Source: an uncultured Thermoproteales archaeon
GTDB lineage: Archaea > Thermoproteota > Thermoprotei > Thermoproteales > Thermoproteaceae
Assembly (NCBI GenBank): GCA_938027595.1
Contig: CALJAK010000013.1
Location: 1 to 33,317, forward strand
DNA length: 33,317 nt
Direction: 5' to 3'
Part shown: piece after piece, positions 22,044-25,950 of the stretch
Numbering within the stretch: position 1 is the stretch's first letter
Layout: each line of letters starts with the position of its first letter
Translations under genes and position numbers: made by a program
The notes under the pieces: model-generated
What the model saw: only the letters and a program-made list of their open reading frames with translations
Told to the model about the DNA's origin: nothing
Databases searched by the model: none

Positions 22044-22337
22044 TCACGTATATCGCTCCAAGTTTTCAATGACTTCTCCAAACCCCCTGTTTCTCAACTC
22101 GTCTAAGTCTCTCTTGTCGTATTTGTGGATGATGTCTCCCTTGTCGCTTGAGAATTCCCACAACGCCACGATGACGTAATCCCCCGCCTTGAGCCAAAGC
22201 TTCCGCCTCAAGCGGCCTGGGAGTCTGGCTGTCCGCACTTCCCCATCGCCACATATCACTCTAAACCGCCCGTCGCCTAGCATATCTATAACTTTACATA
22301 GAATTTCCCCCTCGCCCGGGGTTCTGAATTCCGACAT
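22044..22337 (-). CDS. eif1A: Translation initiation factor aIF1A
   Basis: A 97-residue S1/OB-fold protein that binds the ribosomal A site during initiation. The pattern GEILCKVIDMLGDGRFRVICGDG, read as GEILCKVIDMLGDGRF plus RVICGDGEVRTARLPG, then RRKLWLKAGDYVIVALWEF and the KGDIIHKYDKRDLDEL tail, is characteristic of aIF1A/eIF1A. The basic N-terminal tail of eukaryotic homologues is missing, as in other archaea. ATG 22337 is 25 nt from the centre of TTAAAAAACTTTA (22358-22370), so it is leaderless; this promoter lies in the 3' end of the upstream TnpB-like gene. Confidence 0.94.
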   Translation of the reverse strand: MSEFRTPGEGEILCKVIDMLGDGRFRVICGDGEVRTARLPGRLRRKLWLKAGDYVIVALWEFSSDKGDIIHKYDKRDLDELRNRGFGEVIENLERYT

Positions 22338-22367: not shown

Positions 22368-23099
22368 TTAGACTTGGGGGTAGTAGAGTCTAAATATTTC
22401 TCTAAGCTCAGCCAGCTGCTGCATGCGGCCGAGCCGCCTCACTATGTTCCTAGCCAACGCCCACACTGCGTTGACGTCGCGGCTGACTTGAATCTTGCAC
22501 TGTGGACAGCGGACGACCCGCCCCCGCTTCTCCATACGTCCACCGCAGAGTGGACAGACGTCCGAGATCATGGTGGTGTGCAACTCTACGAAGTAATCTC
22601 TAGCTAAGTGGAACACTTCCCCAAGGAGTGGTTGGAATTTAGCCACTTGGGGGAGGTCTACGACTACTACGTTGACGCCTCTCTTTGGGTGGAAGGCCTC
22701 TTTCACGCCCCCCGCCACCCCCCGCGCCGCCAGTTCCACATATCCACCCATTCTAAACACTCTGTAGACAACGCCCCCCTCGTTTACGTCCATGGCGTGG
22801 ACGACGAATGGAGTTCCACTGACGGCGTCCGGCAAGTTGGCCAACTCGTCTTTCTTCAAGAGGCGCACTATGACTCTGTCGCCAGACAGCAGTACCTCTG
22901 CCTTACTGACGCCGAATTGAGACGCGTTTGAGTAAGTCATTCTCCAACTTTTGTACATACAGAGAGGCACTTCGCCGCTGTATATCGACACGAAGTCGTC
23001 CACCACTCTCACCAAACCCCCCAACTCCACCACTGCGTAAGTGCCCCCCAACACCTCTCTCACTTTGTCAACGTCGCACTTGAGCGAATAGGTAAACAT
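22368..23099 (-). CDS. Compact TnpB-like protein with RuvC core and zinc ribbon (domesticated candidate)
   Basis: A 243-residue protein whose C-terminal half follows the TnpB (IS200/IS605, Cas12 ancestor) order. RuvC-I Asp104 is in FVVHAMDVNEGG. RuvC-II VNVVVVDLP has Asp148 where TnpB has Glu. The zinc ribbon follows with Cys182/185 and Cys198/201 (CPLCGG...CPQC), then RuvC-III Asp208 in SRDVNAVWALARNI. The N-terminal 100 residues are beta-rich, like the strand segment just before RuvC in TnpB; the helical REC part is missing (TnpB is usually 350-450 aa). No TnpA gene or transposon end is seen, and codon use matches the neighbours. The ATG is one base after the metallophosphoesterase stop, so they are one operon. 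The TnpB relation is inference from motifs. Confidence 0.65.
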   Translation of the reverse strand: MFTYSLKCDVDKVREVLGGTYAVVELGGLVRVVDDFVSIYSGEVPLCMYKSWRMTYSNASQFGVSKAEVLLSGDRVIVRLLKKDELANLPDAVSGTPFVVHAMDVNEGGVVYRVFRMGGYVELAARGVAGGVKEAFHPKRGVNVVVVDLPQVAKFQPLLGEVFHLARDYFVELHTTMISDVCPLCGGRMEKRGRVVRCPQCKIQVSRDVNAVWALARNIVRRLGRMQQLAELREIFRLYYPQV

Positions 23100-23100
23100 A

Positions 23101-23724
23101 CTAAAGAGATTTCAACACCACTTCTATCTTACTGCCTAAAGTGGCTTCTGCATATCTACCCTGCCTCAGCGGGCCTGGGTTCACCAACACCGTCTCCCCC
23201 AGGAGGTCAATCCCCCAGTCTTCATGTATATGTCCATGGATGGAGAGCTTCGGCTGCTTGGTCTCAATGTATCTCCTCACGGCGACGCTCCCCACTGGCT
23301 TGACGCGGCCCACTTTGTCTAAATGCCCCCTGGGGGGGTTGTGCACTACCAAAATCTGCGGCGTGGGAGTCAACTGATTCAGCAGACTCTCTATCTCCTC
23401 CTCGCCGAGGCGGAAGAGGTCGTCAAACGGCGTGGGGAGACTACCGCCGACGCCCCCGACTCTGTACTCGCCGAGCTCTACCACCCGCCCGTGTAGGGGA
23501 TGTATATCTCTATCGCTGTATCTCGCCAACTCGGGGGGGTCAGTGTTGCCGGGGACGAAATACACCGGCGCAATTCGCCTCAGCGATTTCAAAACTTCCA
23601 CAGCCGCGTCGAGCCGCCTCTTGTAGGTGTAATCCCCAGCGGCGATCACTGCGTCGTAACCGCCGTCTAACGCTTCTACTTTATCCACCGCGTCGTGTAT
23701 GTCCGCCACAAGCAGCAACCGCAT
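23101..23724 (-). CDS. Calcineurin-like metallophosphoesterase
   Basis: A 207-residue enzyme of the YfcE/MJ0936-like phosphodiesterase group. All metal-site motifs are present: VADIHD (Asp8, His10), AAGDYTY, VPGNTD, VHNPPRGH and the terminal HGHIHE. Substrate unknown; small archaeal members hydrolyse artificial phosphodiesters, and some cleave RNA or cyclic nucleotides. The frame is open to 23736, but ATG 23724 is 23 nt from the centre of the TATA element shared with the radical SAM gene. The TnpB-like gene follows one base after its stop, so translation is coupled. Confidence 0.87.
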   Translation of the reverse strand: MRLLLVADIHDAVDKVEALDGGYDAVIAAGDYTYKRRLDAAVEVLKSLRRIAPVYFVPGNTDPPELARYSDRDIHPLHGRVVELGEYRVGGVGGSLPTPFDDLFRLGEEEIESLLNQLTPTPQILVVHNPPRGHLDKVGRVKPVGSVAVRRYIETKQPKLSIHGHIHEDWGIDLLGETVLVNPGPLRQGRYAEATLGSKIEVVLKSL

Positions 23725-23741
23725 GCCCAACCCCACGGCAT

Positions 23742-23770: not shown

Positions 23771-24661
23771 GTGGCCACGTCTGTAGTGAGACTCTTCGAC
23801 CCCTGGAGAAACCCCCTCTGCACCTGTCCCCCAAAGTACGGCCTCAACCCCTACACTGGCTGTGGTCACCACTGTAAGTATTGCTACATCACTTCCTACG
23901 TTAGAGACGGCTTCAACCCCCGGCTGAAGGAAAACCTCTTATCCAGAGTCAAGAGAGACCTCGAGAAAATCCCGAGGGGGTCCACGGTGGCTCTCTCAAA
24001 CTCTTCAGATCCCTACACCCCGCCCGAGGGGCGGCTGGGGGTCACTAGGGAGGTGCTCCGGCTGCTCCTCGAGAGGGGCCACCGGGTTTTGGTAGTCACC
24101 AAATCTCCACTAGTTTTGAGAGATTTAGACATCTTAACTAAACACAGAGATAGGGTGGTGGTGCAGGTGACAATCACAACGCTAGACAGAGAGTTAGCCT
24201 CCGCACTTGAGCCCCACGCGCCTGGGGGTAGAGTTGAGGCAGTGAGGCGGTTGGCCGGGGCCGGCTTGGCGGTTGGAGTGAGGCTAGACCCCATAGTCCC
24301 CCACCTCAACGACGGCGAGATTGACGCAGTGGTGAGAGCCGCAGCCGAGGCTGGCGCGAGGCACGTAGTGGCTAGTGTTTACAAAGCCAAGTGGGATAAC
24401 TTCGCTAGACTCACGGCGGCATTTCCAGAGTTGGCTCCCCTCTGGAGAGACATGTACCTCAAACGCGGCCGGCGTGTGCATGGCCAGTGGTACGCCCCAG
24501 TTGACTACAGGCGGCGGGTTCTCACGACTGCGGCCGAAGCCGCTAGAAGTTGGCGGCTGCAGTTTTCTATATGTAGAGAAGAATTCACTGAGTTGAACAC
24601 CCCCGGCGCTTTTTGCGACGGTAGTCACTTCTTCAATTTTTATAAGTCGACAGTTGGATAA
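23771..24661 (+). CDS. Radical SAM protein (SPL-related, Rv2578c type)
   Basis: A 296-residue radical SAM protein. The cluster motif is Cys31-x3-Cys35-x2-Cys38 (CGHHCKYCYI), preceded by GLNPYTG and followed by SNSSDPYTPPEGRLGVTREV and VVTKSPLVLRD, the pattern of COG1533 proteins related to spore photoproduct lyase. The substrate is not known for this group. Other cysteines (Cys17, Cys19, and two near the C-terminus in FSICREE and GAFCDG) may hold a second cluster. GTG 23771 is leaderless from the element shared with the metallophosphoesterase; the rhomboid gene follows after 3 nt but has its own TATA element. Confidence 0.88.
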   Translation: MATSVVRLFDPWRNPLCTCPPKYGLNPYTGCGHHCKYCYITSYVRDGFNPRLKENLLSRVKRDLEKIPRGSTVALSNSSDPYTPPEGRLGVTREVLRLLLERGHRVLVVTKSPLVLRDLDILTKHRDRVVVQVTITTLDRELASALEPHAPGGRVEAVRRLAGAGLAVGVRLDPIVPHLNDGEIDAVVRAAAEAGARHVVASVYKAKWDNFARLTAAFPELAPLWRDMYLKRGRRVHGQWYAPVDYRRRVLTTAAEAARSWRLQFSICREEFTELNTPGAFCDGSHFFNFYKSTVG

Positions 24662-25351: not shown

Positions 25352-25368
25352 AATACACAGCCCCAGGC

Positions 25369-25950
25369 GTGGGGCGCCGAGTCGCCGAGTCGGCGTCTGT
25401 GAATCCGCCTCCTCCAAGGGGCGCACATCGCTTACTCGAGTGGGGTGTGATTGAAGTAGTGGCACTACTGGCGGCGTTTTCCATATTGTCCATATTGCAC
25501 ATTCTCTGGCCTTGGCTGAGTGGCCGCGGCGCTGCGTACAGCACGTCTAGAGCTAGAGCTGTGCGGTGGGCGTTTGAGTTAGTGGGGGTTAGGGGGAAAA
25601 GAGTGTACGACCTCGGCTGTGGCTACGGCGTTGTGTTAGCCATTGCCAAATCCATGGGGGCGGAGCCGGTGGGTGTGGAAGTGGACCCACTCCGGTGGTT
25701 GATATGTAAAGCAGTGTGTAGATGTAGAGTGTTGTTTAGGGACATGTTTGAGGTGGATCTCTCAAACGCCGACGTGGTGTACGTTTTCCAATGGCCTTCG
25801 GTGAATGCCAAGCTAGCCGCCAAGTTGGCTAGAGAGTTGAAGCCCACCGCCTACGTGGTGTCTTACATGTGGGAAATGCCACAACTCAAACTAGTGGCTG
25901 AAAACCCCCAACTCAAGGTGTATATCTACCAAAGTATTTATAACGTGTAG
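25369..25950 (+). CDS. Membrane-anchored class I methyltransferase (FAM173/aKMT-like)
   Basis: A 193-residue protein with one hydrophobic helix at about 29-50 (VIEVVALLAAFSILSILHIL) followed by a SAM-binding Rossmann domain: motif I VYDLGCGYGVVLAIAKSMGA, motif II VGVEVDP and a VDLSNADVVYVFQWP segment at motif IV, then LKPTAYVVSY. This order resembles FAM173/ATPSC-KMT and the crenarchaeal protein-lysine methyltransferase aKMT, so a protein-lysine substrate is plausible. The start is uncertain: GTG 25369 is about 36 nt after the TATATATA element at 25330-25338, and GTG 25399 is an alternative that keeps the helix. Confidence 0.68.
   Translation: MGRRVAESASVNPPPPRGAHRLLEWGVIEVVALLAAFSILSILHILWPWLSGRGAAYSTSRARAVRWAFELVGVRGKRVYDLGCGYGVVLAIAKSMGAEPVGVEVDPLRWLICKAVCRCRVLFRDMFEVDLSNADVVYVFQWPSVNAKLAAKLARELKPTAYVVSYMWEMPQLKLVAENPQLKVYIYQSIYNV

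Follow-up and report, generated by a model that had tools for sequence, protein, structure and literature searches.

The gene and its parts

The window analysed here is the whole stretch of 33,317 nucleotides (nt) of contig CALJAK010000013.1, from an uncultured archaeon of the Thermoproteaceae that belongs to the same genus as the Pyrobaculum species. On its minus strand lies a compact gene, running from an ATG at 23099 to a stop codon at 22368-22370, of which the product is very probably a REC-less, domesticated derivative of the transposon-encoded protein TnpB. A slimmed, domesticated TnpB derivative had been proposed from the DNA letters (hereafter the original prediction), and the predicted fold, the conservation of the aspartates and the lack of IS ends all bear this out.

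The elements on which that proposal was built are all present in the 243 amino acids (aa), namely D104, D148 and D208 in this order, a CxxC/CxxC zinc ribbon (C182, C185, C198 and C201) and the sequence RDVNA (residues 207-211). The latter had been described as a signature following the ribbon; it does follow the ribbon, but D208 lies within it and RDVNA is itself motif III. The Pfam family PF07282 (Cas12f1-like_TNB) is matched above its cut-off by the window protein (27.5 bits, E=3.5e-6), as well as by 18/18 members of the family described below (best 1.5e-8). The coordinates are collected in Table 1.

Table 1. Positions in the window of the compact gene, its parts and its neighbours
Feature	Position	Strand	Basis
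Compact TnpB-derived gene, 243 aa	22368..23099	-	Open reading frame; 18-member orthologue alignment; PF07282
N-terminal domain, residues 1-97, WED-like	22809..23099	-	AlphaFold2 model of the domain alone; Foldseek
RNase H/RuvC core with inserted TNB, residues 98-222	22434..22808	-	AlphaFold2 topology; Foldseek
D104 codon, motif I (MDVNE)	22788..22790	-	Invariant in 18/18; aligns with the motif I Asp of TnpB
D148 codon, motif II (VVVVDLP)	22656..22658	-	Invariant in 18/18; matches the Asp of Asp-type TnpBs
D208 codon, motif III (RDVNA)	22476..22478	-	Invariant in 18/18 and in all aligned TnpBs
CxxC/CxxC zinc ribbon (TNB), residues 182-201	22497..22556	-	PF07282 match at 179-213; four Cys invariant
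Metallophosphoesterase, upstream, 1-nt gap	23101..23736	-	PF12850/PF14582/PF00149; neighbour, partnership with the compact gene not implied
aIF-1A gene, downstream, 30-nt gap	22044..22337	-	PF01176, NF003082; neighbour
Radical SAM gene, the neighbour seen most often across three genera	23771..24661	+	PF04055

Distribution, conservation and selection

Orthologues of the compact gene occur as a single copy in 18 of the 19 Thermoproteaceae genomes, including 15/15 of those that are at least 90% complete, while the sole family genome without one is 73% complete. Among the carriers are Pyrobaculum sp. WP30, P. oguniense and several members of Thermoproteus. The remaining 62 genomes of the class yielded no orthologue (E<=1e-8), and in a 398-genome sample of the phylum the other matches were partial only, covering residues 130-235 (i.e. 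motif II to the end of the TNB) and mostly sitting in longer, TnpB-sized frames. Viral contigs yielded no relatives of the compact protein.

Identity among the 18 orthologues ranges from 43 to 75%, with the window protein differing at 25-57% of its positions. Both the aspartate triad and the four ribbon cysteines are nevertheless invariant throughout (18/18), and the motif pattern is therefore not a matter of chance; the family-wide presence of orthologues and the state of their aspartates were precisely what the original prediction had proposed to look up. Equally invariant are K50-S51-W52-R53, T55, Y56, H101, N106 and E107 in the first half of the protein, and N143, P150, R207, N210 and W213 in the second. 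Within the genus, the pairwise ratio of nonsynonymous to synonymous substitution rates (dN/dS) is 0.05-0.16 where dS is measurable, which means that the compact protein is under purifying selection.

The compact gene is vertically inherited. In six genomes (G000, G009, G011, G016, G017 and G018), the window genome among them, it is the only match to PF07282, whereas the Pyrobaculum-group genome G004 (1.8 Mb) has 57 such matches, i.e. a large TnpB expansion beside a single compact gene, and it follows that the gene is independent of the mobile TnpB population. In the window genome no Y1 transposase TnpA (PF01797) and no further PF07282 gene were found, so that the absence of a transposon, which had also been claimed, holds. 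One could still imagine that the gene is what remains of a transposon, either decayed or trapped recently, and that its frame stays open by chance, given the clear TnpB ancestry and the active TnpB populations of sister genomes such as G004. A universal single-copy gene with the dN/dS values given above, neighbours only 1 and 30 nt away and no TnpA does not fit that picture, however, and the conservation data refute it to the point that it is practically excluded.

Predicted fold

The full-length AlphaFold2 model (predicted local distance difference test, pLDDT, 85.2; predicted template modelling score, pTM, 0.80) places residues 98-222 in the order b1-b2-b3-aA-b4-aB-b5-TNB-aC (b for strands, a for helices), which is that of RNase H, and thereby supplies the RNase H core that the original prediction called for. 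D104 lies in b1 (98-106), D148 in b4 (142-148) and D208 in aC (207-222), with the TNB placed after b5 (170-174) and before the motif III helix, as in the TnpB layout (PMC10097598). At E<=0.001, Foldseek returned four matches in the PDB, three to AsCas12f and one to ISFba1 TnpB (8iaz), and the best named matches among viral models were TnpB-type transposases. The template modelling scores are low (~0.3) because the alignments span a much larger protein.

Modelled alone, the N-terminal domain (residues 1-97; pLDDT 87, pTM 0.80) consists of seven strands and short helices and carries the invariant basic/aromatic KSWRxTY motif (50-56). In ISDra2 TnpB, the WED domain (1-12 and 117-176) is a seven-strand barrel with a helix, and REC (13-116) sits between its strands b1 and b2, followed by RuvC (185-326 and 360-375) with the TNB (327-359) and the catalytic residues D191, E278 and D361 (PMC10097598). 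In the compact protein, the strands on either side of the REC slot (2-7 and 21-26) are linked by a single helix (10-17) and not by a four-helix REC. Judging from the number of strands and the single helix, a WED from which REC was deleted would be the simplest reading of the model. The structural match to WED is suggestive only; Cas12n, Cas12f, Cas12g, Cas-lambda and Cas12p are among the first 50 Foldseek matches of the domain, none of them significant.

Relationship to TnpB proteins

At the profile level, homology to TnpB is clear. With hhalign the family matches 17 local Asp-type TnpBs (group A) at E=5e-13, a set of Asp-type TnpBs at E=6e-14 and seven Glu-type TnpBs at E=1e-12, the last alignment extending over columns 65-224 and bringing both the motif I Asp and motif III into register. 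Most of this signal comes from the zinc ribbon. Without the ribbon, the scores against the Glu-type and Asp-type sets (26.4 and 26.9) are still above those of all 40 column-shuffled decoys (maxima of 21.9 and 21.3, respectively); group A was the third template set in this control. A profile search of solved structures gave Cas12n at E 0.065.

The ribbon also attracts look-alikes, as which TiaS and DNA ligase (from a single-sequence search of solved structures) were rejected, together with weak NCBIfam, Pfam and PADLOC matches to TiaS, Csl4 and Csx1. The best PADLOC match of the compact protein is in fact a 'Csx1' profile (PDLC01039, E=2e-5, residues 178-216), slightly ahead of Cas12f, which probably reflects the shared zinc ribbon. 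Three matches from the genomes (L025, L026 and L028) resemble Csl4 and were likewise rejected.

Classical TnpBs have a Glu in RuvC motif II, while motif II of the compact family reads hhhhD[LV]P. The original prediction had taken this Asp as a departure from TnpB; the Asp is there, but it is no peculiarity of the compact protein. Full-length TnpBs with Asp in place of Glu (hhhhDxP) are found broadly in Thermoproteota (L019-L034 and L142-L153), and the Thermoproteales group A TnpBs have hhhhD in motif II, often followed by xP, and RDxxP followed by W in motif III. Since these full-length proteins share the Asp, Asp148 is probably a legacy of Asp-type TnpBs and not a new loss. Labelling the protein nuclease-dead from the Glu-to-Asp change was rejected as unproven.

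By motif detail, the nearest full-length relative is L142 (376 aa, related at the level of the class), with YVEYHGT...RDVNACW. An origin nested within the multicopy group A was considered because of shared motifs and may apply; in the tree of conserved blocks the position of the compact family is tentative (support 56), with Glu-type TnpBs on one side of it and L142-type TnpBs on the other.

Guide RNA

According to the original prediction, REC would be the part of TnpB that holds the omega RNA. This is not the case: in TnpB, REC recognises the TAM and the heteroduplex, and most of the grip on the omega RNA scaffold comes from WED and RuvC, to which RuvC of ISDra2 contributes residues Q227-K263, located between its motifs I and II (PMC10097598). 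It is exactly the span between these two motifs that is reduced in the compact family, from 82-104 aa in local TnpBs and 87 aa in ISDra2 to 44 aa. Net charge is +3 to +9, compared to +23 to +50 for TnpBs, with that of the N-terminal domain being about zero.

The TnpB-type omega RNA is absent from its usual place. Counting only loci where the neighbour was identified within 600 nt, the gaps between the stop codon and the next gene are 30, 3, 81, 22, 4, 4, -26 (four times), -35, 86 and 36 nt, i.e. -35 to +86 nt, which is too little to accommodate a standard omega RNA. The 3' neighbour itself varies, being aIF-1A, the phosphoesterase, a convergent gene or the radical SAM gene.

The protein might still be RNA-guided if its guide were encoded elsewhere or were a host small RNA, comparable to the bulky RNA that takes over REC functions in IscB: IscB and IsrB lack REC and have large omega RNAs instead (PMC10097598), and the WED-like domain, which in TnpB is the main scaffold binder together with RuvC, appears to have been kept. 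However, besides the lack of downstream room next to changing neighbours, the 3' end of the gene is free of synonymous-site constraint (conservation of synonymous codons is flat, 0.45-0.57 in 15-codon bins), nothing in Rfam matched at the gene, and the span that makes the omega RNA contacts is halved while the N-terminal domain is practically uncharged. An RNA-guided protein is thus quite improbable.

Genomic neighbourhood

Within 6 kb of the compact gene, the 18 genomes have a radical SAM gene in 13, aIF-1A in 12, a KaiC-like ATPase in 11 and a metallophosphoesterase in 8 cases, in rearranged order. This neighbourhood is common to three genera, which places the compact gene at this locus in the ancestor of the family. 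In four outgroup genomes (from other families of the order), neither a relative of the compact protein nor a full-length ancestral gene stands beside the radical SAM gene, and the other neighbour genes are missing there as well, the sole exception being a distant match to an ABC ATPase.

Across the family, the compact gene has no constant operon partner. The translational coupling to the metallophosphoesterase that was originally suggested is supported by the 1-nt gap in the window but does not hold in general: the two genes are adjacent or within ~2 kb in 8/18 genomes, the close arrangement is limited to some Pyrobaculum-group genomes, and in several relatives the order is reversed, with the phosphoesterase 3-22 nt downstream. 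In Thermoproteus it is the KaiC-like ATPase that lies 11-28 nt upstream of the compact gene. The persistence of these neighbours would suit a structural or scaffold protein with an RNase H fold that has ceased to act on nucleic acids; such a protein might, for instance, work together with the products of the translation, phosphoesterase or KaiC-like genes nearby. Against this, the immediate partner gene differs between genera, and the acidic triad, the KSWRxTY motif and the zinc ribbon are all invariant, which makes a scaffold very improbable.

A role in defence was considered and rejected, since what PADLOC detects in the protein itself is limited to the zinc ribbon, and the surrounding genes do not form a defence island. 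The neighbours that were identified at the 18 loci belong to metabolism, transport and translation, and no CRISPR association was seen at these loci, although no dedicated CRISPR search was made. The adjoining metallophosphoesterase matches the PADLOC candidate defence model PDC-S10 (E=8e-22), which may reflect only a common enzyme family. Elsewhere in the window, Rfam identifies PyrR201, a Pyrobaculum H/ACA-type small RNA, at 25360-25427 on the plus strand (70.8 bits), overlapping the start of a methyltransferase-like open reading frame (25369-25950).

Proposed function

Following these results, the best overall explanation, which seems somewhat more probable than not, is a domesticated REC-less TnpB derivative that most likely acts as a guide-free, metal-dependent nuclease. 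The argument for a nuclease without a guide is that the acidic triad, the TNB and the KSWRxTY motif have been kept, while REC, the guide-binding span and the omega RNA layout have been lost. On these kept and lost parts, it is a finely balanced matter whether the protein is indeed an active nuclease that needs metal and no guide. What the data show is homology to TnpB, the anatomy of the protein, its invariant residues, vertical inheritance and the loss of REC and of the omega RNA layout; that the protein cuts, that it does so without a guide and what it cuts are inferred. In this account the TnpB ancestor lost its REC domain and the omega RNA-binding RuvC segment, which left a WED-like barrel joined to a pared-down RuvC/TNB nuclease core. 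With its WED-like domain and its ribbon the protein may then recognise a nucleic-acid structure, which would be cleaved in a metal-dependent and guide-free manner as part of a constitutive function in the cell, e.g. in processing or repair. The complete scenario, in which a housekeeping nuclease arose from TnpB through both deletions and was fixed in the ancestor of the Thermoproteaceae, is plausible if slightly doubtful.

Several points weigh against this interpretation. The AlphaFold2 models were built on an alignment of only 18 related sequences, and although the first PDB match of the N-terminal domain is TnpB (8iaz), its E is 0.2 and no match is significant. Sequence homology outside the ribbon is weak (E only ~0.005), and against group A alone the ribbon-less score does not exceed the decoys. 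Furthermore, in alignments with Glu-type TnpBs both aligners put D148 on the Asp that follows the catalytic Glu, an ambiguity of one residue by which Val147 would come to occupy the catalytic position. Finally, the motif II Asp of Cas12m2 is too distant to bind the second Mg, and that enzyme does not cut (PMC10442227).

The last point leads to the main rival, namely a function in binding only: with three aspartates the protein would bind at most one metal and, like TldR and Cas12m2, be a nuclease-dead nucleic-acid binder, e.g. a regulator or an architectural factor. Exaptation of TnpB with loss of RuvC activity is documented (PMC13418256), and the motif II Asp is the very residue with which Cas12m2 fails to place its second Mg. 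However, dead relatives lose such residues, whereas D104, D148 and D208 are invariant in the 18 diverged orthologues; TldRs retain guide RNA binding, for which the parts are reduced in the compact protein; and the Asp is also present in full-length Asp-type TnpBs of which one genome has accumulated many copies. A binder without nuclease activity is therefore considered unlikely, and the guide-free nuclease is retained as the preferred explanation.

Comparison with known systems

In the literature searched, which left out most subscription journals, no description of the compact protein was found. The TnpBs of IS200/IS605 and IS607 (e.g. the 408-aa ISDra2 TnpB, and ISFba1 TnpB, 8iaz) are RNA-guided endonucleases, with which the compact protein shares the order motif I-motif II-TNB-motif III, an RNase H fold in which the TNB is inserted after b5 and ahead of the final helix, the CCCC ribbon and, tentatively, a WED-like N-terminal domain. 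It differs from them in its size of 243 aa, half that of its transposon ancestors, the lack of REC, the short span between motifs I and II (44 versus 82-104 aa) and the motif II Asp, so that there is no DED triad (18/18), and its gene differs in being single-copy and vertically inherited, with neither an omega RNA layout nor a transposon. The Asp-type TnpBs (L142-L153 and group A) are closer in detail, having DVN in motif I, hhhhD(x)P, a CPxCG ribbon and RD-----W in motif III, and L142 has RDVNACW and YVEYHGT where the compact family has RDVNAxW and YVELHTT. These proteins are, however, 336-523 aa long, have kept REC (in those that were read) and are multicopy in some genomes. Cas12f and Cas12m likewise have a RuvC-TNB core, AsCas12f being the best Foldseek match and Cas12m2 also having Asp in motif II, but the compact protein is half their size and has no REC.

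In the known exaptations of TnpB (Cas12 and TldR) the guide RNA is retained, while the nuclease is lost in some cases. TldR resembles the compact protein in that a TnpB was recruited to serve the host and became linked to genes that are not part of a transposon, but it has lost the RuvC catalytic residues while keeping REC and the guide RNA, whereas the compact protein keeps the acidic residues and has lost REC (PMC13418256). The compact family thus appears to have taken the reverse of the TldR route, with the guide machinery lost and the nuclease kept. If confirmed, this would be a second fate for domesticated transposon nucleases, as well as a very small natural WED-RuvC-TNB protein with which the RuvC/TNB core can be tested without REC. 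The family occurs in cultivable hyperthermophiles, e.g. Pyrobaculum oguniense and, presumably, Thermoproteus tenax, and its protein is probably stable and amenable to crystallisation.
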